This document shows, in pieces, positions 31,083-41,212 of a stretch of DNA of 41,212 bases. The notes beneath the pieces were generated by a model. The model saw nothing but the letters and a program-made list of their open reading frames with translations. It had not been told where the DNA came from and made no database searches. The stretch's first letter is position 1. Every line of letters begins with the position of its first letter. Source of the DNA: Geminocystis sp. M7585_C2015_104 (GTDB lineage Bacteria > Cyanobacteriota > Cyanobacteriia > Cyanobacteriales > Cyanobacteriaceae); the NCBI GenBank assembly GCA_015295805.1, contig DVEF01000095.1, positions 1 through 41,212 on the forward strand, given 5' to 3'. The translations under genes and the position numbers were made by a program.

Positions 31083-32888
31083 ATGGTTTCCATTGACATA
31101 GAAGCTATAAGATTAGAATTTGACCGGATTGTGGCCGCTTTTGGTACGCCCAATGACATTTTCAGACTACAAACAGAGAGATTCATACAAGAAAATTCCA
31201 TTATCCTCCAAGAAGTAGGCAGCGGCAACAATATCGAAAAGGTGTTTTTGACAGTTACCACCTTTGAAGATCAAAACGATGGCAGCTATACTGGAGGCTT
31301 ATCCCTTCGGGATGCCATTTTAAGAGCCAAGGCCGATTCTAACAAAGAATATGTAATCCGACTACCAGCAGGTGTCTATCAGCTTTCCATCCAAGGCAAT
31401 GAAGACACCCTCTCCCCAGCCACCAATCCTAACCTCCCCGGCATAGCAGATGACATTGTCATTCGCAGTGGGGATTTAGACATTAAAACAAGGATAAGGA
31501 TAGTCGGTGCCGGCGCCAATGCCACTATTATAAACGCCTCTGGACTAGGAGATCGTATTTTTGACGTGGGGGAGGGGGGTTTATTAATCCTAGAAGGTGT
31601 AACCCTGGAAGAAGGATTTGCTAATAACACCACTACAGCCAATGGCACTGCTGGTGGGGCAATCCGCATCCAACAGGGGGGAGGGGCTATCATCAGCAAC
31701 AGTATAATCCGTAATAGTAGCACTCCCCTGAGAGGAGAAGCCAAAGGTGGTGGTATTGCCAACTTCGGTGACCTAGAACTTGTCAATACAACCATATCTG
31801 GCAATGTTACCGGGCTTGGGGGAGGCGTTTACACCACAGGTAACTTCAAAATTCTTAACAGTTCCCTGGTAGGAAATGTGGGGAGTGATGGGGGTGGTGG
31901 TATCTATGTTGGTGGCAACGCCTCTGGGGTAATTTTAAATAGTACTATCTCTAGTAATCTTACGGAAAAGAGTGGGGGTGGCATCCTCAGTGAAAACGCC
32001 ACCGTTTCTGTAGTCAATACCACCATCACCAAAAACTCCGCCTAGACTGGTTCCGGTATCATTGCTGTAGGGCCTGATAACCCCCTGTTGTTGCAAAACA
32101 GTATTGTGGCCGGGAATTTGGAAAGTGCAGACATAGAGGGATTCTTTGCAGCCAATAGTGCCTTTAATCTGATTGGCAATGGCAATGGGGTTATGGTAAA
32201 CGGTCTTAACGGCAACATAGTTGGTGATGTTCTTAATACCATAAATCCCAGACTTGGTCCTCTGCAAAACAATGGGGGTATTACACCCACTCATGCTCCA
32301 CTCCCAGATAGTCCCGCCATTGACCGAGGTGACAATCAGATTTCAAGCCAGGTAGGCCAGACAGATCAAACTGGTGCCAATCGGATCAGAAATCGGCGAG
32401 TGGATATTGGCAGTGTAGAAGCTCAAATTAGTCCTCATCCCCTTCTTACCTCACCCATTTATCGTTTTCAAAATAGAGAAATTCCTGGCACATACTTATT
32501 TGTAAATGAAAGTGAGCGTCAACGAGTCCTAGCCAACTTCCCCCAATTCCAGGAAGAGGGATTTGCCTTTAGTGTCGCCACCAGGGAAGCAGATGGTTTA
32601 ATTCCTATTTATCGTTTTCAAAATAGGGAAATTCCCGGAACCTATTTATATGTCAACGAGGAAGAAAGACGGAGGATTCTTCGACAATTTCCCCAGTTTC
32701 AGGAAGAAGGATTAGCCTTTTATGTTTTCCCCGGCAATTCCACTGAGGGCGAGACTATTTATCGTTTCCAGAATAGCAATCTCCCTGGCACTTATTTGTT
32801 TGTAAATGAAGCCGAAAGACTGAGTATTCTCCAAAATTATCCCTCTTTTATCCAGGAGGGTATTGCCTTTTCTGCTTCCCTTCTATAA
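31083..32888 (+). pseudogene. Beta-helix surface protein with one in-frame TAG
   Basis: One reading frame of 601 codons plus stop is interrupted only by TAG at 32043-32045. Before it: a C-S-L-R-E-A-like opening (T-G-G-L-S-L-R-D-A-I-L-R-A near 78) and right-handed beta-helix repeats rich in G, N, S and T (N-S-I-I-R-N-S, G-G-G-I-Y-V-G-G-N-A). After it, in the same frame, the helix continues (L-L-Q-N-S-I-V-A-G-N-L) into the choice-of-anchor Q closing block (L-G-P-L-Q-N-N-G-G-I-T-P-T-H-A, S-P-A-I-D-R-G, R-R-V-D-I-G-S-V-E-A). Then come three 50-residue Y-R-F-Q-N repeats. No signal peptide is visible at the start. A C-to-T change of one CAG would explain the TAG. A short product of 320 residues may still be made. 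Likely a cell-surface or exported protein. Confidence 0.82.
32457..32885 (+). repeat. Three 150-base tandem coding repeats
   Basis: Repeat units start at 32457, 32607 and 32757, exactly 150 bases apart. Each encodes I-Y-R-F-Q-N-(R/S), P-G-T-Y-L-(F/Y)-V-N-E, (S/E/A)-E-R, and a final F-x-x-E-G-(F/L/I)-A-F. This is the beta-propeller-like module seen at the end of many cyanobacterial surface and calcium-binding-repeat proteins (akin to the Y-R-F-Y-N / T-H-F-Y-T modules of DUF5648-type). They form the C-terminus of the beta-helix protein above. Confidence 0.85.
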
Positions 32889-32892
32889 GTTA

Positions 32893-33774
32893 CTATAGAC
32901 CGTTATAGGAACTATAAAAATACCTCTCCAGACTCTCTAACCAGTAGGGGAGAGTCAAATTGTATTCTTTTCTTATTTTGCTGGTATTCAAGACAGAATA
33001 AGCCGGACGTTTTGCTGGCGTAGGATATTCCTCTGTTAGAATTGGCAGGAGCTCTTTTACTTTTAAATCATACCCTTTTTGACGGGCATTTTTGATTATA
33101 TTTACAGCAAAATCATACCAGCTACATACTCCTAAATCTGTCAAGTGATATATTTCTTGTTGCGAATCCTTGCCCCGGGTTTCTATCAGTTTTTTTATCA
33201 CAGTAGCAATGTTTTCTGCTAACGTGGGACAACCAGTTTGGTCCATCACTACTCTGATTGTATCCCTTTGTTGCCCCAGTTTTAACATAGTTTTGACAAA
33301 ATTGCTCTTACCATATCTGCCATAAACCCAAGCAGTCCTTATGATAACAAAATTGCTGCTGATTGCCTTTATATTTTCCTCCCCCTCCAGTTTCGTTTTC
33401 CCATAAACTCCCAAGGGGTTAGTGTCATCTGTTTCTAAGTAGGGTTTATTCGCCCTGCCGTCGAATACATAGTCGGTAGAGATGTGGACAAATTTTGCTT
33501 TTATCTTCTCCGTCTCTTCAGCAATTATCTTTGGAGCTAGTCCATTTATTTGTTGTGCCAATTCCGGTTCAGATTCCGCCTTGTCCACAGCCGTATAAGC
33601 CGCGGCATTTATGACAATATCTGGTTTGATTTCTCTTATGCATTCCTGAATTTGTTGAGGGATATTTAAGTCAACTTTCTGGCGATTTATGGGTAAAAAT
33701 TCAGGGGAATTTTGAAAAACATATGTGATTTCCCTCCCCACTTGCCCATCACAGCCAAATAAAATTATTTTCAT
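32893..33774 (-). CDS. rfbD: dTDP-4-dehydrorhamnose reductase
   Basis: 293 residues, full length. It reduces dTDP-4-keto-L-rhamnose to dTDP-L-rhamnose with NAD(P)H for surface polysaccharide. The extended short-chain dehydrogenase pattern is complete: F-G-C-D-G-Q-V-G-R-E near 6-15, N-A-A-A-Y-T-A-V-D-K-A-E near 57, H-I-S-T-D-Y-V-F-D-G near 97, the catalytic Y-G-K-T-K near 128, R-T-A-W-V-Y-G near 146 and D-Q-x-G-x-P-T near 183. The rfbA, rfbB and rfbC partners are not adjacent. It is the last gene with clear cyanobacterial-style codon use before the island. It is convergent with the beta-helix gene, with 4 bases between stops. Confidence 0.93.
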   Translation of the reverse strand: MKIILFGCDGQVGREITYVFQNSPEFLPINRQKVDLNIPQQIQECIREIKPDIVINAAAYTAVDKAESEPELAQQINGLAPKIIAEETEKIKAKFVHISTDYVFDGRANKPYLETDDTNPLGVYGKTKLEGEENIKAISSNFVIIRTAWVYGRYGKSNFVKTMLKLGQQRDTIRVVMDQTGCPTLAENIATVIKKLIETRGKDSQQEIYHLTDLGVCSWYDFAVNIIKNARQKGYDLKVKELLPILTEEYPTPAKRPAYSVLNTSKIRKEYNLTLPYWLESLERYFYSSYNGL

Positions 33775-34261
33775 TCTCCTCCTCCATAGATAATACTATA
33801 CAATCCGGCTACGTCGCCGCCCAAAGCCCAAGTAGCTCAACCAAAATAAGCCTAAATGAAAATGATAGGCCTAAACAATAAGTAAAGCACAAACGGGGAG
33901 GCTTTGAACCCAATGGAATACAAATTAGAAATAGATATTAGAAACAGATGATAAATGATAAAGGAATATGAAAGACATTAAACTAAAATCATTTCCCCAT
34001 CCAGGTTCTATACTACAACGAGAGTAAAACAAGGGTAAAAAGGAGAATAACTCTTCCTACACCCTAGTGCCATGGAATCTAGGTATTTAACACCAAAGGG
34101 CCTGCCGCGGCACACGAGAAGGTGGATTAAATTCTAGAAATTCAGGTTCCACAAGCCCGTGTTCAGGGATGTGTGGTATATTATTGGGTTTATAGGGTGG
34201 GAATATGGGCCAGAAACTTCTCATTAAAAAACTACAAAAAAGTACAAAACTCTGTTTTAAG
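33775..34261. other. AT-rich stretch without a supported gene
   Basis: Upstream of rfbD the sequence becomes AT-rich and low in coding character. Open frames on both strands are short, start without ribosome-binding sites and show no motif. One minus-strand frame (34087-34413) reaches 108 codons but matches nothing I know, and its 5' half overlaps the relic described next. This is probably the left edge of the transferred segment, with decayed DNA. Confidence 0.5.
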
Positions 34262-34500
34262 GATCTATTGGGGCACAAGGCTTTGAAAAGATAAGAAAAC
34301 AAGGACAATCTTTTGTGGACAAAAACCACATTATAGCAAAGCTTATTGGGGAGAAAGTTTATTATTTCCTCATCAAGGCCAAAAATATTTAGGACATCCC
34401 CATTCATTGACATCCTAAAGTAGACCTTAATAGATAAAAAAGAACTTTTTGAAAAGCTGTATCTAGAGGAAAACTGAGATAACTCTTGGAACCTCTAAAA
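34262..34500 (+). pseudogene. Relic 1: N-terminus of an AAA-ATPase-like/PD-(D/E)XK family gene
   Basis: Reading through one frameshift and two stops gives the N-terminal order of the family (AAA-ATPase_like domain followed by a PD-(D/E)XK domain). I-G-A-Q-G-F-E-K-I-R-K resembles the usual I-G-I-Q-x-F-E-x-I-R, FVDKNHIIAKLIGEKVYYF resembles Y-V-D-K-T-x-x-I-x-x-L-I, and S-S-R-P-K is the remnant of L-S-R-P-R-R-F-G-K-S with the Walker A lost. Then F-I-D-I-L-K and K-K-E-L-F-E-K-L-Y-L-E-E-N follow. Nothing recognisable from the rest of the gene remains, so it is truncated or beyond recognition. It lies just upstream of maf on the same strand. Confidence 0.75.
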
Positions 34501-34991
34501 TTGGAATTTTTAAAAAAAGAAAGGTTCAATTACTGCAAAAAGCATCCAACTTTATTTTTCATTAACAGGCTGAACTCCCAAAATGCTGGCCCTACCTGTA
34601 CAGAGTTGAAAAGCCCGTCTGAAACGGGTAATTCTCGAACATATTCTTTAAAAGATTACTGTATAAGAGGAATTTTTTGTGGAAATAAAAAAACAGAAAA
34701 AAGCCCAACAAATGAGAGGGGCTACAGGAAAATGCACCTAGAGGGCGGGGACGAAGAAAGAAACGGGCATATTCTCGGAAACAAATTCTATAAAAACTGC
34801 CACATAATGGCTCTCTCTGACAAAGAAAAAATGGAATATAAGAGCTAGTAGAAATTCTAACCCACCCAAAAGGTGATGGGACTGAGTGTAAGTTATGGTA
34901 CGATAACCATAGTGCGGTTCCAGCCCGGGCACCCTGTTTGCCCCGATTCAAATTATTTAATAAAACGACAATATTACAATACCCCTAGTCT
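34501..34991. other. Degenerate stretch before maf
   Basis: Open frames here (for example 34486-34848 on the plus strand) show no domain. Possible faint continuation of relic 1 (K-K-H-P-T-L-F-F for the family's K-K-Y-P-V-I-x-I-S-F) is seen at ~34535 but not enough to call. A six-base stem (TATGGT/ACCATA near 34894-34911) occurs without a T-run. No clear ribosome-binding site precedes the maf ATG. Confidence 0.4.
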
Positions 34992-36929
34992 ATGAAATTT
35001 ACAGAAGACCAAATAAAGCAATTATTCATCAAAAACAGTGCAATATTGCGCAAAAAAGCCCCCTACCTTTGGCAAATAGCATCTTCAGGGGAGAAAGGTT
35101 GTGAGGTGAAGGTGGACGGAGAGGGGAGGATAAATGCTATACTCCGTGGCAACCCAGTATACAAGACTGATGCCTTACAATTATCCCTTTCCCAGGTGGA
35201 AGCCTTTGAAGCCAAGCCCGCAAGACTGTTTGCCGACTTTGAGAATATCGGCAGAGAAATAAACCCACAGATAATCGCCCATAGGTATAGCTTTGAACTA
35301 CTGGAAAGACTACCGAACAAGATATCCCCCCCCTCCTGCCGAAAGACAAAGCACATACCTCTTCTGCTGATGGTGGGGCTTGGTTTTGGTCTTCATTTAA
35401 AACTCCTATTGGAAAGGTATGAAATCCAAAACCTCATAATTTTGGACGTACCAGTCTTCTTTAGGCTTAGCCTTTATACCCTGGACTGGGAATGGTTTTT
35501 AGAACACTATAGTCAACCCGGGAGAAGCTTAAACGTCATTGTCCACAACAAGCTAGTATTGGAAAAGGACTTGGACATAGCCTTTGCCGAGTTAAGAAGT
35601 GCTATTGGTCAGCTAAATCCAGGACTATTTTACTGGGGCTATTATTTTGAGCATATCCACCACAGTCCCCCCATGAAGGTGAGAGAGTGGTTTGGCCAGT
35701 CTCCATTATTTTTTGAATTTTTCATGGGCTACTTTGACGACGAGCTTTGGTCTTTAAAATGGACATTGGAGAAATTCCCGAAAAAAATACCCCTATACTA
35801 CCCTCATAAGAGAGTATCAGGGGGGGCTGTTGCCTTTGTACTGGGGGCAGGCCCCTCTTTAGACTATGCCCTTGACAAGATAAGGAAATATCAGGATAAG
35901 GCCGTTATATTCTCCTGCGGTTCCACCATATCTTCTCTGGAAAGGGCGGGTATAGTCCCAGACTTCCACGTAGAAATAGAAAGGACTAAATACACCTACG
36001 ACACCCTTGTAGAAATAAGCGGAGACTTTCTAAGGCAAATTATTCTTATAGCCGACAACCCCCTCTGGACAGACTGCTTTGACCTTTTTAAAAAGGGCTA
36101 CATGTTTTTAAAGCTCAACGACACAGGGGCATTCCTTTTGGAACCCACGGGCTCGCCCTTCATTTGGTATATCGGACCCACTGTGACTGCGGCGGGGGTA
36201 GCTTTGGCGGCGGAGTTCGGCTTTGATACCATATTCCTCTTCGGCGTTGACTTGGGCACCAGGAATCCCCAACAACACCACTCCCACCTCAGCAATTATT
36301 ACAACCCCAAAAGTATGCTTCATAAACAAAAAGTGGACTTCCCTCTAACCGCACCTGGCAATTTTGGTGGGGTGGTGCACACCAATTTACTTTTCGCCAA
36401 AACTAAGTATGCCATCGAGCGGGTTATAAAGAAAAAAGGCGTAAGGGTATACAACACTTCCGACGGTGTTATGATAGAGGGGGCGAAACCTTTGCCAATA
36501 GAATTTTTCAGGGTGGAAGGGGATTTTGACAAACAGTCGGCCATAGAAACCATTGAAGGAAACTTTGACACCACCTACATAGATCTGGTAAACCCTGCTG
36601 AAGTATTAGAGAAGCTGTACAGTGATTTTGAAACCCTGGCTCAAGAGGTAGGGGAATATGCCAAAAAGTTCGACGGCACTAAGCTCTACGATGTAATTCA
36701 TGGTATTAGGGTGTTGGGAGGGGATATATCTTCTAAGAAAAACACCCTTTTGTACAACCTCCTATTCCACAACGTCTATTCCTGGAGTAGACTGGCATTA
36801 GGATATGCTCTTAGCCTAGAAGACAAGGAGAGGGGGGAGTTTATGGGCTTTTTCTGGGATATGTGCCACCGGTTTATAGAAGAGGCTAAAGGGGAAATCA
36901 AAAAGGTCGTGGAGGAGTTTGGAAAATGA
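34992..36929 (+). CDS. Maf-type motility-associated glycosyltransferase (DUF115)
   Basis: 645 residues. Maf proteins attach pseudaminic or legionaminic acid to flagellin Ser/Thr residues in flagellated bacteria. The N-terminal ~270 residues look like the Maf_N region (S-F-E-L-L-E-R-L-P, L-L-M-V-G-L-G-F-G-L-H-L). The core (~283-455) is the DUF115/MptE-like domain: L-G-A-G-P-S-L-D, I-F-S-C-G-S-T-I-S-S-L, G-I-V-P-D-F-H-V-E-I-E, Y-I-G-P-T-V-T-A-A-G-V-A and F-L-F-G-V-D-L-G. Its stop overlaps the start of pseI as ATGA, which ties glycan synthesis to transfer in one transcript. Cyanobacteria lack flagella, so the acceptor here must be another protein, or the segment is foreign to the chromosome. Confidence 0.9.
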   Translation: MKFTEDQIKQLFIKNSAILRKKAPYLWQIASSGEKGCEVKVDGEGRINAILRGNPVYKTDALQLSLSQVEAFEAKPARLFADFENIGREINPQIIAHRYSFELLERLPNKISPPSCRKTKHIPLLLMVGLGFGLHLKLLLERYEIQNLIILDVPVFFRLSLYTLDWEWFLEHYSQPGRSLNVIVHNKLVLEKDLDIAFAELRSAIGQLNPGLFYWGYYFEHIHHSPPMKVREWFGQSPLFFEFFMGYFDDELWSLKWTLEKFPKKIPLYYPHKRVSGGAVAFVLGAGPSLDYALDKIRKYQDKAVIFSCGSTISSLERAGIVPDFHVEIERTKYTYDTLVEISGDFLRQIILIADNPLWTDCFDLFKKGYMFLKLNDTGAFLLEPTGSPFIWYIGPTVTAAGVALAAEFGFDTIFLFGVDLGTRNPQQHHSHLSNYYNPKSMLHKQKVDFPLTAPGNFGGVVHTNLLFAKTKYAIERVIKKKGVRVYNTSDGVMIEGAKPLPIEFFRVEGDFDKQSAIETIEGNFDTTYIDLVNPAEVLEKLYSDFETLAQEVGEYAKKFDGTKLYDVIHGIRVLGGDISSKKNTLLYNLLFHNVYSWSRLALGYALSLEDKERGEFMGFFWDMCHRFIEEAKGEIKKVVEEFGK

Positions 36930-37972
36930 TAGAAATAGCAAATAGGAAGGTAGGAGAAGGCCTGCCCGTTTTCACAGTGGCCGAACTTTCCGCTAACCAC
37001 CTGCAGGATTTGAACCTGGCCATGAAGACTATAGAGGCCATAAGGGAATCCGGTGCAGATGCGGTAAAGCTACAAACCTACACCCCGGATACTATAACCA
37101 TAGATGCAAGGAATGAATACTTCATGATAAAAGAGAGCACTCTATGGGATGGCCAATATTTATACGACCTTTACAAAAAAGCCTACACCCCCTGGGACTG
37201 GCATGACAAACTGTTCGAGTACGCCAAAAAGCTGGGGCTTGTATGTTTCTCCTCGCCTTTTGATAAGACTGCTGTAGACCTTTTGGAAAAACTCAACACG
37301 CCCGCCTACAAGGTGGCTTCTTTTGAGATAACTGACATACCCCTGATAGAATACATAGCCAGCAAGGGAAAACCCGTTATCATCTCCACGGGCATTGCTA
37401 CCCTATCAGACATAGAAGAGGCCGTCAACGCCTGCAGGAGGATGGGCAACGAGCAAATAGTACTTTTGAAGTGCGTATCCGAATATCCTACCCCACACGA
37501 GGATGCCCACCTGAGAACAATCCCCAACATGAGGGAAACCTTTGGAGTGCCCGTGGGACTTTCTGACCACACTCCGGGCATATCCGTGCCCGTGGCCGCA
37601 GTGGCATTAGGTGCGGTAATGGTAGAAAAGCACTTCATCCTGGACAGAAACCTAAAAAGCCCAGACAGTGCCTTTTCCCTCACCCCAGCCGAATTCAAAG
37701 CCATGGTGGAGGCCATCCGTCAGGTAGAAAAAGCCCTCGGAAAGGTGACTTATGACCTCACACCTAGGCAAAGACAGATGAAGAAATTCTCCCGAAGTCT
37801 GTTTGTAGTAAAAGAGCTAAAAAAGGGTGAGGTTTTCACTGAAGAGAATGTCAGAAGCATCAGGCCTGGCTACGGGCTGGCACCTAAGTATTTGCCCCAA
37901 GTGTTGGGGAAGAAGGCAAAAAAAGACATCTCTAAAGGAACACCCCTTAGCTGGGAACTGATAGAAGAATAG
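36926..37972 (+). CDS. pseI: Pseudaminic acid synthase (NeuB family)
   Basis: 348 residues. It condenses phosphoenolpyruvate with the 2,4-diacetamido-hexose made by PseB/PseC/PseH/PseG to give pseudaminic acid. The NeuB barrel is intact: V-A-E-L-S-A-N-H near 19-26, A-D-A-V-K-L-Q-T-Y-T-P-D-T near 44, S-S-P-F-D near 111, S-T-G-I-A near 151, L-K-C-V-S-E-Y-P-T near 183 and G-L-S-D-H-T-P-G near 212. The C-terminal antifreeze-like SAF domain follows (R-S-L-F-V-V-K-E-L-K-K-G-E near 292). The S-A-N-H and Q-T-Y-T-P-D-T blocks favour PseI over sialic acid synthase NeuB. It overlaps maf by 4 bases, with a GGAG ribosome-binding site inside maf. Confidence 0.9.
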   Translation: MIEIANRKVGEGLPVFTVAELSANHLQDLNLAMKTIEAIRESGADAVKLQTYTPDTITIDARNEYFMIKESTLWDGQYLYDLYKKAYTPWDWHDKLFEYAKKLGLVCFSSPFDKTAVDLLEKLNTPAYKVASFEITDIPLIEYIASKGKPVIISTGIATLSDIEEAVNACRRMGNEQIVLLKCVSEYPTPHEDAHLRTIPNMRETFGVPVGLSDHTPGISVPVAAVALGAVMVEKHFILDRNLKSPDSAFSLTPAEFKAMVEAIRQVEKALGKVTYDLTPRQRQMKKFSRSLFVVKELKKGEVFTEENVRSIRPGYGLAPKYLPQVLGKKAKKDISKGTPLSWELIEE

Positions 37973-38127
37973 CCCTTTTGTCCAGTAACATTTCCCCTAC
38001 TTTTTTTTCTTCCTAAAGACAAAAAACTACAAAGATATCAATATTCAAAGTCAGGGCGGAAAACAAAAGGTGTAGTGTTTACTAGGGGAAAAAGCAAAAA
38101 GATATTTGTTGAGGAGATGGAACTGAA
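37973..38127. other. Short intergenic stretch before relic 2
   Basis: AT-rich, no gene seen. A T-rich run at 38000-38013 follows the pseI stop but no convincing stem precedes it. Confidence 0.5.
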
Positions 38128-39554
38128 ATGAGTAAAAAACTGCCAATAGACATACAAACTTTGGAAGAAATTAGAACAGAGGTTTTTTATTATGGACAAG
38201 ACTAATTTTGTTCCCCCGCTTGTGTAAGAAGGTAAGTCTTAGTTTTTGTCCCGGCCAGGATATTTGGCAACCTTTTGTTTTTAGATGCCTTAAAGCAGGC
38301 ATTTCCGAGAGAATTGGAACAGGGGAAATGTACTGTGATTCATAGATTTTCGTGGTTTGATTACAAAATGCTCACTATCTCAAAAACCGGGTTTAGAATA
38401 AATAAATCTCAACCGTTCAATGAATTTAAATATTACAAAATAATATGAAAGGAATATATTAGTTGATAAATTTATCTACACATTCCCGCAGAATTAAACC
38501 CAATTATCCGGTAATAAAAACGTTTCGTTAAGGGAATATAAAGGTTGTATTTTAAATAGATGAAGGGTTAATTTTGATATATGAATATGAAGGGCAAATT
38601 ATTGAGAAAAAAAGCCAAAAACACACAAAGAAGAGGTAAAAGCCATCAGAGAAATCCTAAAAAACCTGTACGGCGTCATCAAGCCCCTCTATACCTATAT
38701 GAAATTTGTTATCATAACGGGGGAATTAGATTTTTTAAAAGTTCCATTGTTTTCCGGCCCTAATCAACTCCAAGATATAACACTAAACTCCAACTACTCT
38801 ACTATCTGGGGCTACGGGGAAAAAACTACAAACCGTATTCGAGGGGAAACTTCAAGGACGAGAATTATCAGAAATAAAAAAGTGGTACAATGGCCATTCT
38901 TCCTGTGGCGAAGAAAAGGTTTATTACACCTCTCAGAAAAACAGTTTAAACCCCACTAGTTTGAAACCGGCACCCCTAAAACTGCTGATAGCAAACAGAG
39001 TATTCATTCCCGAACTCGAAAATCTATATGTTTCCCACACATCACTTGACGGCTTTGACGTCGACTACATGCAGCCGGAAAATATACCCTTCTAAGCAGG
39101 ACATCTAAGAGGGATTAGCTATATCCTTACATATCCAAACAAGGAGGTGAAGGGCTTATTAAATGAAAGGCTACTTAAATGAAAGGCTACTGAGGCACTT
39201 TACAAATTGGCTCCCCCTTTAGGGGACAAAAGATAAGGTGTTACCTTGGTAGTATTTTAATTTACAAAGTTTATTTTTAATCCCTGATGTACAGTCTTCT
39301 GTCGTCCACAGGCCTTGAAATATCCGCAGCCAACAGGGGCAGTTCTTTGTAACACTTTTAAAGACAAAAACCCCAGGAGTAGAATTCAGGACTATGAAGA
39401 ACAAGCCAGGGAGCTATGCCTTGACGCAGATAGAGGGGAACAGGTACCATTAGGAGTATGTGGTAAATATAAGGAGGTATGCCGGGTTGGAGAACAGTTC
39501 AGTGAAAAGGAGGAGAATGTAGTTGGTTTTGGCGGAAAAACGGTGAATAATTAG
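38128..39554 (+). pseudogene. Relic 2: near full-length AAA-ATPase-like/PD-(D/E)XK family gene
   Basis: Followed through many frameshifts and stops, the family order is visible. M-S-K-K-L-P-I-D-I-Q-T-L-E-E-I-R at 38128, Y-Y-x-D-K-T-N-F, F-L-S-R-P with the Walker A damaged, L-D-A-L-K-Q-A-F near 38290 and N-Y-P-V-I-K near 38492. L-I-L-I-Y-E-Y replaces the L-I-D-E-Y-D Walker B near 38570. FVIITGELDFLKVPLFSG then starts at 38702, followed by N-Q-L-x-D-I-T-L, K-K-W-Y-N-G, R-V-F-I-P-E-L-E-N-L-Y, K-G-L-L-N-E-R-L-L, G-L-E-I-S-A-A-N-R-G near 39310, A-L-T-Q-I-E-G-N-R-Y-H near 39418 and N-V-V-G-F at 39514-39528. Intact relatives are ~500 residues, and this relic spans about 475 codons. Their role is unclear; they occur in many copies in thermophiles and anaerobes. 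Confidence 0.85.
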
Positions 39555-39578
39555 GTTCCTGCCCTGGAGGGGAGAGGA

Positions 39579-40610
39579 ATGGGCTTTCTGGACAACAAGG
39601 TAATACTCATAACAGGAGGCACCGGCTCTTTTGGAAAGGCCTTTACCCATTTTGTCTTGAAACACTATAACCCTGCCAAGCTGATCATCCTCAGCAGGGA
39701 TGAGTTCAAGCAGTGGCAGATGCAAAGGGAATTCCCAGAAGACAGATATCCCCAGATAAGGTTTTTCCTAGGAGATATACGGGACAAGGACAGACTAAAA
39801 TTCGCCTTTGACGGTGTGGACTATGTGGTACACGCCGCCGCTCTAAAACACGTCCCCACCCTGGAGTACAACCCCTTTGAGGCGGTTAAGACAAACATCC
39901 TTGGCTCTCAGAACATTATAGAGATCGCCATCGAGAAAGGGGTAAAGAGGGTAATAGCCCTCTCCACCGATAAGGCGGTAAGTCCAGTGAATCTATACGG
40001 TGCTACAAAGCTCACCATGGAAAAGCTCTTCGTTGCAGGCAATGCCTACGCGGGCTCAAAGGAAACCTCCTTCGCCATAGTGCGCTACGGCAATGTGGTG
40101 GGCAGTAGGGGAAGCGTTATACCCCTGTTTTTAAACCTCCTAAGAGAAGGCCGTAGGGAGTTTCCCATCACTGATAAGAGAATGACACGCTTCTGGATAA
40201 CCTTAGAGGAGGGGATTAGACTTGTGCTTTTTGCCCTTGAATACGGAGAAGGCGGCGAAGTATTTGTGCCAAAGATACCCAGCGTAAGGGTTGTAGACCT
40301 TGCAAAGGTCATGTGTCCCCATTGTTCCCTCAGATACATAGGCACACGCCCTGGAGAAAAGCTTCATGAAAGCCTAATCTCCCCCGATGAGTCAAGGGAC
40401 ATAAGACTTATAAAGCACGAAGGTAAAGAATACTTTGTTCTACTTCCTCAGTTTAGCTTTGAAGCGAGGGCATTGGAAAAGTGGAAAAATTCCCCAAAGA
40501 TGCCAGAGGGCTTTTTCTACAGGAGCGATAAAAACGACTGGTGGCTAGAAGGTGAGGAACTGAAAGACTTCTTGGATAGGGCTCTGAGTAGCCTTGAGGT
40601 AATATATTGA
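39579..40610 (+). CDS. pseB: UDP-N-acetylglucosamine 4,6-dehydratase (inverting)
   Basis: 343 residues, right for PseB. It is the first step of pseudaminic acid synthesis: UDP-GlcNAc is dehydrated at C4-C6 and epimerised at C5. The NAD-binding start I-T-G-G-T-G-S-F-G-K-A-F is at 11-22, then D-I-R-D-K-D-R-L near 66, H-A-A-A-L-K-H-V-P near 87 and S-T-D-K-A-V-S-P-V-N-L-Y-G-A-T-K near 129 (the S-T-D-K and Y-x3-K active site of this family). A V-R-Y-G-N-V-x-G-S-R-G-S-V block follows near 168. GGAGGGGAGAGG is a strong ribosome-binding site. By hand count about 30 of 35 leucine codons are CTN and arginine is mostly AGG/AGA, unlike the genes left of 33.8 kb. Confidence 0.94.
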   Translation: MGFLDNKVILITGGTGSFGKAFTHFVLKHYNPAKLIILSRDEFKQWQMQREFPEDRYPQIRFFLGDIRDKDRLKFAFDGVDYVVHAAALKHVPTLEYNPFEAVKTNILGSQNIIEIAIEKGVKRVIALSTDKAVSPVNLYGATKLTMEKLFVAGNAYAGSKETSFAIVRYGNVVGSRGSVIPLFLNLLREGRREFPITDKRMTRFWITLEEGIRLVLFALEYGEGGEVFVPKIPSVRVVDLAKVMCPHCSLRYIGTRPGEKLHESLISPDESRDIRLIKHEGKEYFVLLPQFSFEARALEKWKNSPKMPEGFFYRSDKNDWWLEGEELKDFLDRALSSLEVIY

Positions 40611-40652
40611 TATCTATATAGAGCAAAGCAATTTTAAACGTAATTTTAGACA

Positions 40653-41212
40653 ATGATACCCTACGGCAGGCAGTACATAGACGAGGAGGACATAAAGGCG
40701 CTCCTTGAAGTTCTAAAGTCCGACTTTATAACTCAGGGGCCAAGGATTCAGGAGTTTGAAAGAGTTCTTGCAGATTACTGCGGGGCAAAATATGCGGTGG
40801 CTTTCAATTCTGGTACTTCGGCTCTCTACTGTGCTTACAAAAGCCTTGGACTGGGGGAAAAAGACCAGTTCATCACAAGCCCCATAACCTTTACAGCCAC
40901 AGTCTCTGCGGGAGTTATGCTGGGTGCAGAGCCGGTATTTTGCGACATAGAGCCAGACACCGGCAATATGGACATCAACCTACTTCAAAGCCTGATAACA
41001 GACAGAACAAAGCTCATAGTTCCAGTCCACTACGCAGGACATCCTGTTGACATGGAAAAGGTTTGGGAAGTGGCTCAAAAGTATGGTCTCTATGTGGTGG
41101 AGGATGCCTGCCACGCCCCTGGCTCTAAGTATAAGGGCTACAAGACAGGCTCCTGCAGGTTTTCCCATGCGGCTATCTTTAGCTTTCATCCCGTAAAGCA
41201 CATAACTACAGG
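40653..41212 (+). CDS. pseC: UDP-4-amino-4,6-dideoxy-AltNAc transaminase (3' end off the window)
   Basis: 186 codons visible from the ATG at 40653; the window cuts the gene. It is a DegT/DnrJ/EryC1-type PLP aminotransferase acting on the product of PseB. The PseC-type opening I-P-Y-G-R-Q-Y-I-D-E-E-D-I is followed by L-K-S-D-F-I-T-Q-G-P, A-F-N-S-G-T-S-A-L, S-P-I-T-F-T-A-T near 88, V-E-D-A-C-H-A near 150 and S-F-H-P-V-K-H-I-T-T, where the K binds PLP. It follows pseB by 42 bases on the same strand. The remaining steps (pseF, pseG, pseH) would be expected to the right. Confidence 0.93.
   Translation, partial: MIPYGRQYIDEEDIKALLEVLKSDFITQGPRIQEFERVLADYCGAKYAVAFNSGTSALYCAYKSLGLGEKDQFITSPITFTATVSAGVMLGAEPVFCDIEPDTGNMDINLLQSLITDRTKLIVPVHYAGHPVDMEKVWEVAQKYGLYVVEDACHAPGSKYKGYKTGSCRFSHAAIFSFHPVKHITT

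Follow-up and report, generated by a model that had tools for sequence, protein, structure and literature searches.

A Maf glycosyltransferase and pseudaminic acid gene island of Aquificota type in a Geminocystis genome with no flagellin match

The stretch of DNA analyzed here (the window), which is 41,212 nucleotides long and corresponds to the whole of contig C95 of the Geminocystis sp. M7585_C2015_104 assembly, carries at its right end a maf-pseI-pseB-pseC gene series, encoding a Maf-type glycosyltransferase and enzymes of pseudaminic acid synthesis. The best-supported explanation is that this series, along with a pseG located on another contig, is an island of Aquificota type that moved into a cyanobacterium without a flagellin match. 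Horizontal acquisition and integration of the island are very probable, and, judging from sequence comparisons, we assign a probability of about 0.6 to the reading that it is both integrated and still functional in some way. An earlier interpretation, made from the letters alone (the sequence-only reading), had proposed a new kind of glycosylation system; in this case, the parts are of a known kind that has been moved, and the enzyme set itself is a relocated one and not a new kind. Possibly, the Maf would have been retargeted after this relocation.

The genes of the island present on the window, and the gene at its left, are the following.

32893..33774, minus strand: rmlD/rfbD, dTDP-4-dehydrorhamnose reductase (TIGR01214, 347 bits), the left cyanobacterial flank of the insertion
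34992..36929, plus strand: maf, Maf-type glycosyltransferase of 645 aa with Maf_flag10_N and MptE-like domains (PF20157, PF01973)
36926..37972, plus strand: pseI, pseudaminic acid synthase of 348 aa (TIGR03586)
39579..40610, plus strand: pseB, inverting UDP-GlcNAc 4,6-dehydratase of 343 aa (TIGR03589)
40653..41210, plus strand: pseC, first half (186 aa) of a frame that runs off the contig end (TIGR03588)

The maf and pseI frames overlap by the bases ATGA (36926-36929), and the arrangement described by the sequence-only reading, with maf coupled in this way to pseI and followed by pseB and pseC, is borne out for both the open reading frames (ORFs) and their families. The two Maf domains score 81 bits for PF20157 (cut-off 23.5) and 109 bits for PF01973 (cut-off 34.6), and a comparison with the NCBIfam PseD model (NF050051) gives 63.7 bits, below its 670-bit threshold. 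Moreover, residues 125-514 of the Maf align to the PDB entry 5mu5 (5mu5_A, E 2.8e-42), whose row reads only "Uncharacterized protein" and which we take to be the Maf of Magnetospirillum. PseI reaches 525 bits (cut-off 340) and PseB 477 bits (cut-off 408), and the half-length PseC frame gives 264 bits over positions 1-190 of a model with a cut-off of 423.5. An interval of 1,606 bp (37973-39578) that contains no intact gene separates pseI from pseB, and a gap of 42 bp is present between pseB and pseC, where the same two genes overlap in the closest Aquificota locus.

This locus, L068, belongs to an Aquificota metagenome-assembled genome (MAG) whose title names Tibet. With PseI as query against the contigs of the named genomes, the best 80 of 86 relatives being kept, the best matches are L068 (84%) and the Aquificaceae loci L069 (78%) and L070 (76%), whereas the Maf as single query against named genome contigs found no relative. 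A comparison of the window with L068 reveals the same gene order, with amino acid identities of 64% for Maf, 84% for PseI, 81% for PseB and 78% for PseC (186 aa) and a DNA identity of 65-76% over the four genes, L068 being the closest locus found. Its maf-pse genes are back to back with those for flagellin (identified by Pfam), FlaG, FliD and FliS (the last three named by eye), and further on a cytidylyltransferase-aminotransferase fusion, PseH and PseG are encoded, pseG being downstream on the other strand. The flagellin-glycosylation island of Aquificota (L068/G406 C4, L211-L213) thus shares with the window the Maf-pseI-pseB-pseC order and the overlap of Maf with pseI, at 60-84% amino acid identity in the case of L068. 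However, no match to flagellin, FlaG, FliD or FliS adjoins the window's genes, their left flank consists of a spacer and rfbD, a 1.6 kb decayed gene lies between pseI and pseB, and the host is a cyanobacterium.

Among the Aquificota, 31 of the 136 genomes searched have a Maf match. Maf, PseI and PseB are found together in six of eight Aquificota loci (seven genomes, that of L068 included), and PseC comes next in five of these six. Flagellin adjoins Maf in four of the eight, so it is a common and not a strict feature; L214 and L216 have sequence on that side in which flagellin gives no match, and L215 and L217 reach or approach a contig end. In the Aquificaceae MAG represented by L069 and L216, the Maf frame is split into two overlapping ORFs, with no flagellin match in the upstream stretch read.

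The sequence-only reading had proposed a tree of Maf as a check, and in this tree the window's Maf nests inside those of Aquificota, within a set of seven rows of which the other six are from this phylum (support 100/100). The exact sister, L181 from the L068 genome, is less sure (91/58). Of the 45 loci listed for this tree, 26 came from the Aquificota search, 11 from the window's phylum and eight from elsewhere (including two more Aquificota and one from genome G264). L126 was dropped because of its length, and the addition of the window brought the tree to 45 rows; other same-phylum Maf loci, L187, L199, L204, L207 and the second matches of each genome except L217 were left out. Also, codon usage in maf, pseI, pseB and pseC differs from that of 23 hand-picked other ORFs of the window, with AGG and ATA about twice as frequent, and a codon score in which each gene is excluded from its own reference splits all four island genes from all 23 others.

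The surroundings of the island are those of a cyanobacterium. For the left part searched (26.0-33.8 kb), DNA matches were found in seven of seven genomes of the same family, its own included, and in G151, from the same genus, the two genes left of the island have amino acid identities of 91% (oxidoreductase) and 89% (RmlD, located on G151:C38). It is well established that cyanobacteria have no flagella. The window's own assembly (G000; 2.82 Mb, 108 contigs, 96.9% complete) gives no match to Flagellin_N (PF00669), the sole flagellar family searched across this whole genome, with a control positive in 4 of 14 genomes; this agrees with the cyanobacterial setting without flagellin put forward by the sequence-only reading. 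Neither do the FliC, FlaG, FliD and FliS proteins of L068 match the window, contig C67 or five other pieces of the own genome, so that a complete flagellar system beside the island, which the same reading had named as a counter-indication, is not seen in these pieces. No 16S match was found in the own assembly, neither Rfam nor tRNA scans detected anything in the window, and the short repeats at 33-41 kb were judged to be at chance level.

The other end of the island appears on contig C67 of the same assembly, where the first 788 bases (C67:3-788) encode a PseG cut by the contig end and 60% identical to that of L068. Its truncated frame scores 125.5 bits with the PseG profile (cut-off 153.55), the complete L068 PseG scoring 157.4. 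After pseG there is a spacer of 1.4 kb and then rfbC (Pfam) and murF (named by eye), in a region 84% DNA-identical to G151:C25. C95 joins rfbD to maf and C67 joins pseG to rfbC, and the orientations of both agree with one insertion between rfbC and rfbD, PseG being on the opposite strand, as in L068. Because rfbC and rfbD are neighbors in a relative (G391, with the two matches 4 bp apart on one strand), C95 and C67 look like the two flanks of one island, the middle of which is absent from the assembly. With cyanobacterial DNA joined on two sides, the integration that the sequence-only reading had made conditional is corroborated. In G151, DNA homology stops about 3 bp upstream of the rfbD start codon and also a few bases from the rfbC stop, each end being about 0.75 kb from a contig end (C38, L060 1-728; C25, L172 1-755), so this genome apparently also carries something unassembled between rfbC and rfbD. 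These contig breaks suggest that in G151, too, the site is a hotspot of insertion or contains repeats. The terminal 20 bases of the window have no match in 147 other loci (C67 not among them), two overlapping copies of the window aside.

DNA without an intact gene flanks and interrupts the island, and contains stops in all frames. It includes the following features.

33775..34991, no strand assigned: decayed spacer 1, 1,217 bp between rmlD and maf, with no intact gene
34267..34377, plus strand: AAA-ATPase_like (PF09820) fragment, 25.7 bits, or 26.3 with its in-frame neighbors (cut-off 26.1)
37973..39578, no strand assigned: decayed spacer 2, located between pseI and pseB and containing what is left of an AAA-ATPase_like gene

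Spacer 2 aligns to a decayed AAA-ATPase_like copy in G151:C10, with 57% identity over 1,065 columns (E 7e-29 to 2e-28), and to the AAA-ATPase_like copy of its own contig C105, with 69% over 181 bases, and gives no match to L068 at E 1e-3. For spacer 1, no DNA match to the AAA-ATPase_like copies was found. PF09820 has two matches in G000, three in G151 and none in the genome of L068. Moreover, segments of 35-120 bases from the C67 spacer (L155 974-1099) are repeated at numerous sites in G000 as well as in G151. The best-supported account is that, next to the island and within it, AAA-ATPase_like genes belonging to the recipient's genus underwent decay while the pse and maf frames stayed open. 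The AAA-ATPase_like genes encountered in this genus are mostly short or decayed copies (window 34267-34377 and 37973-39578; L054 7147-8138; L156; L157).

Such traces of the recipient's genus, found within the island and next to it, make it hard to invoke a chimera of assembly or binning, in which Aquificota DNA would have been misjoined to a cyanobacterial contig. Such an artifact is very improbable. The foreign codon usage does start at maf, the contig does end inside pseC, and donor and recipient could share a habitat (for L068 presumably a hot spring, given the place named in its title). Nonetheless, the two island ends are on separate contigs and join, in matching orientation, the two flanks of a single rfb locus; the island contains a remnant that resembles the AAA-ATPase_like copies of the cyanobacterial genus; and L068, the nearest locus found, is only 65-76% identical in DNA.

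That the integrated island is still functional in some way is supported by the state of its genes, whose frames are open over about 1,520 codons with no stop or frameshift. Positions invariant in all compared homologues are largely kept in the window, being 89 of 96 for Maf, 151 of 156 for PseI, 169 of 174 for PseB, 94 of 99 for PseC and 20 of 21 for PseG. In a leave-one-out control, the other rows lose from 0 to 17 invariant positions, the exception being the distant Maf L079, which loses 83. On the other hand, the island could be a passenger on its way out, that is, a chance arrival with no acceptor that is decaying and whose intact frames would reflect only a recent arrival. This is somewhat doubtful in itself, and it remains a serious rival to a retargeted Maf. 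It would account for the lack of a flagellin match and of a pseF in the assembly, for the interruption of the operon by a decayed stretch of 1.6 kb and by 42 bp at the pseB-pseC junction, for a codon usage that is still foreign, and for a Maf branch lengthened about twofold. It accounts less well for open frames standing next to spacers with stops in all frames, and for conserved positions that are mostly kept. However, the argument from open frames fails in the event that the decay of the spacers predates the arrival of the genes.

Several observations weigh against an integrated and working island. The Maf of the window loses 22 of the 215 positions invariant in six Aquificota Mafs (a count made for the window only), and with each of three outgroups it shows about twice as many changes as its nearest relative (47 versus 23, 48 versus 26 and 92 versus 43), the excess having p values of 0.006 and 0.014 with the distant outgroups and a smaller one with L214. 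For PseI and PseB, a weaker excess is nominally significant with one of three outgroups each, and PseC has none. The Maf excess is present in every region and largest in the MptE-like region, so it does not single out acceptor binding, and the idea of a faster change confined to the acceptor-binding part of the protein was rejected; relaxed constraint and a new acceptor would explain the excess equally well. The dN/dS versus L068 is low, but dS is saturated, so this value says little on the time since transfer. Regarding the insertion site, the rfbC-rfbD neighborhood is found in one genome only (G391), both genes being far apart in G187; moreover, contig ends truncate pseC as well as pseG, C95 and C67 not being physically joined. 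Also, the pathway is incomplete as assembled. PseB and PseI are over cut-off in the own genome, and of the pseF, pseG and pseH that the sequence-only reading proposed to look for, pseG is present on C67, no PseF or CMP-transferase (PF02348) reaches the cut-off in the assembly, from which the DNA between C95 and C67 is absent, and the PseH of L068 has no match in the window and six pieces of the own genome, the comparison being restricted to these pieces and not genome-wide. The only CTP_transf_3 match in G000 scores 20.6 bits (cut-off 22.6), and a similar one occurs in G151. The second half of pseC was not found in the own genome. An aminotransferase on own contig C7, considered as this missing half, was rejected; it covers model positions 15-379 with 251 bits (below cut-off) and is 38% identical to the window's PseC. 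Finally, the Mafs studied in PMC11339370 are reported not to have glycosylated non-cognate flagellins.

If the island works, PseB, PseC, PseH, PseG and PseI along with a CMP-transferase would produce CMP-pseudaminic acid, in which case PseH and the CMP-transferase would have to sit in the unassembled stretch between pseC and pseG. The Maf would then transfer pseudaminic acid in the cytoplasm to Ser/Thr residues of a non-flagellin protein before its export, a type IV pilin or an adhesin being our guess for the acceptor. According to published work, the reaction by which Maf enzymes decorate Ser/Thr of flagellin with nonulosonic acids takes place in the cytoplasm and precedes export (PMC4065374, PMC11339370), and this order of events is stated for Maf1-dependent flagellin glycosylation (PMC4065374). 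Moreover, the Clostridium Maf accepted mini-flagellin chimeras and not non-cognate flagellins (PMC11339370), a result that cuts both ways for retargeting, and for Thermus type IV pili carrying a pseudaminic acid derivative are reported, in passages that mention no Maf (PMC7203116), so such sugars can sit on pilins. The Maf family as a whole (5mu5, Maf1 of Aeromonas caviae and the Maf of Clostridium botulinum) shares the Maf_flag10_N and MptE-like domains with the window's protein; however, the window's genome has no Flagellin_N match. A Maf acting on a non-flagellin acceptor, which is one of two sub-cases of the functional reading, is possible, at overall odds rather below even.

Two arguments of the sequence-only reading on the acceptor did not hold. 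The coupling of maf and pseI had been taken to favor a dedicated acceptor, but the Aquificota operon has the same overlap, which makes it uninformative about a cyanobacterial acceptor. The beta-helix protein at 31-33 kb had been suggested as the acceptor, but the corresponding ORF (31083-32885; choice-of-anchor Q and DUF5648) is broken by an in-frame TAG at 32043-32045 and is absent in G151, where only about 240 bp lie between the same neighbors. A relative of this ORF is present on own contig C32 (L066), and DUF5648 is also found near Maf in G264 (L056 2949-4016).

Also within the functional reading, the sugar pathway could serve a surface polysaccharide, with the Maf idle or vestigial. Overall, this second sub-case is rather unlikely, despite the insertion between rfbC and rfbD, which are dTDP-rhamnose genes, and despite PseI homologues in the order-level relatives G197, G403 and G405 (47-49% identity) with no match to the window's Maf in the 15-20 kb around each PseI; for G197, the genome search in the phylum sample gave no Maf_flag10_N match either. 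A pseudaminic acid biosynthesis cluster is likewise reported in the hot-spring cyanobacterium Thermosynechococcus CL-1, in a passage that names no Maf (PMC7005997). On the other side, the frame of the window's Maf is intact, it still overlaps pseI, and the conserved positions of the protein are mostly retained, the MptE-like region being the most conserved. In five further loci (L034-L038, from the relatives G014, G389, G070, G109 and G145), NeuB/PseI-like domains with 34-38% identity are inside open frames of about 750-760 aa, perhaps fused enzymes.

Maf proteins are rare around this genome. Maf_flag10_N was detected in 25 of the 386 genomes of a phylum sample (21 over cut-off), 23 of which share only the phylum with the window and are outside its class, and in 2 of the 388 genomes of a class sample, corresponding to the own genome and G264. 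In the open-licence PMC literature, no paper on a Maf glycosyltransferase in cyanobacteria was found, and none was on the subject by title when maf, cyanobacteria and flagellin were combined. The G264 cluster (C1, about 97-122 kb; L056 2949-17431 and L171 331-9982) is comparable to that of the window in having Maf with PseB, PseC, PseI (over cut-off), PseG-like and SpsF-like genes, the PseG-like frame being 25% identical to the PseG of L068; WbuX, an N-acetyl sugar amidotransferase, is also encoded there, as is a frame with a weak similarity to PseH that stays below the cut-off. However, the neighbors of the G264 Maf are exporter genes of the ABC and HlyD types and the gene of a 798-aa protein with a high content of Ser, Thr, Ala and Gly, and this Maf is only 26% identical to that of the window over the aligned part, on a long and poorly placed branch outside the window's clade. 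The 798-aa protein has no Pfam, NCBIfam or PDB match at the thresholds used, and it may resemble type I secreted S-layer proteins. Considered along with the G264 cluster, a Maf retargeted to a different exported protein would point to a more general cytoplasmic nonulosonic acid protein transferase, a proposal that we hold tentatively, as one of several readings of the sequence.

Finally, the island described here is a well-delimited example of flagellum-linked genes for protein modification that passed from one phylum to another, the recipient genome having no detectable flagellin. If its enzymes work, the action of Maf on non-flagellin proteins, which the cognate-specificity work considered here leaves open, would become testable.

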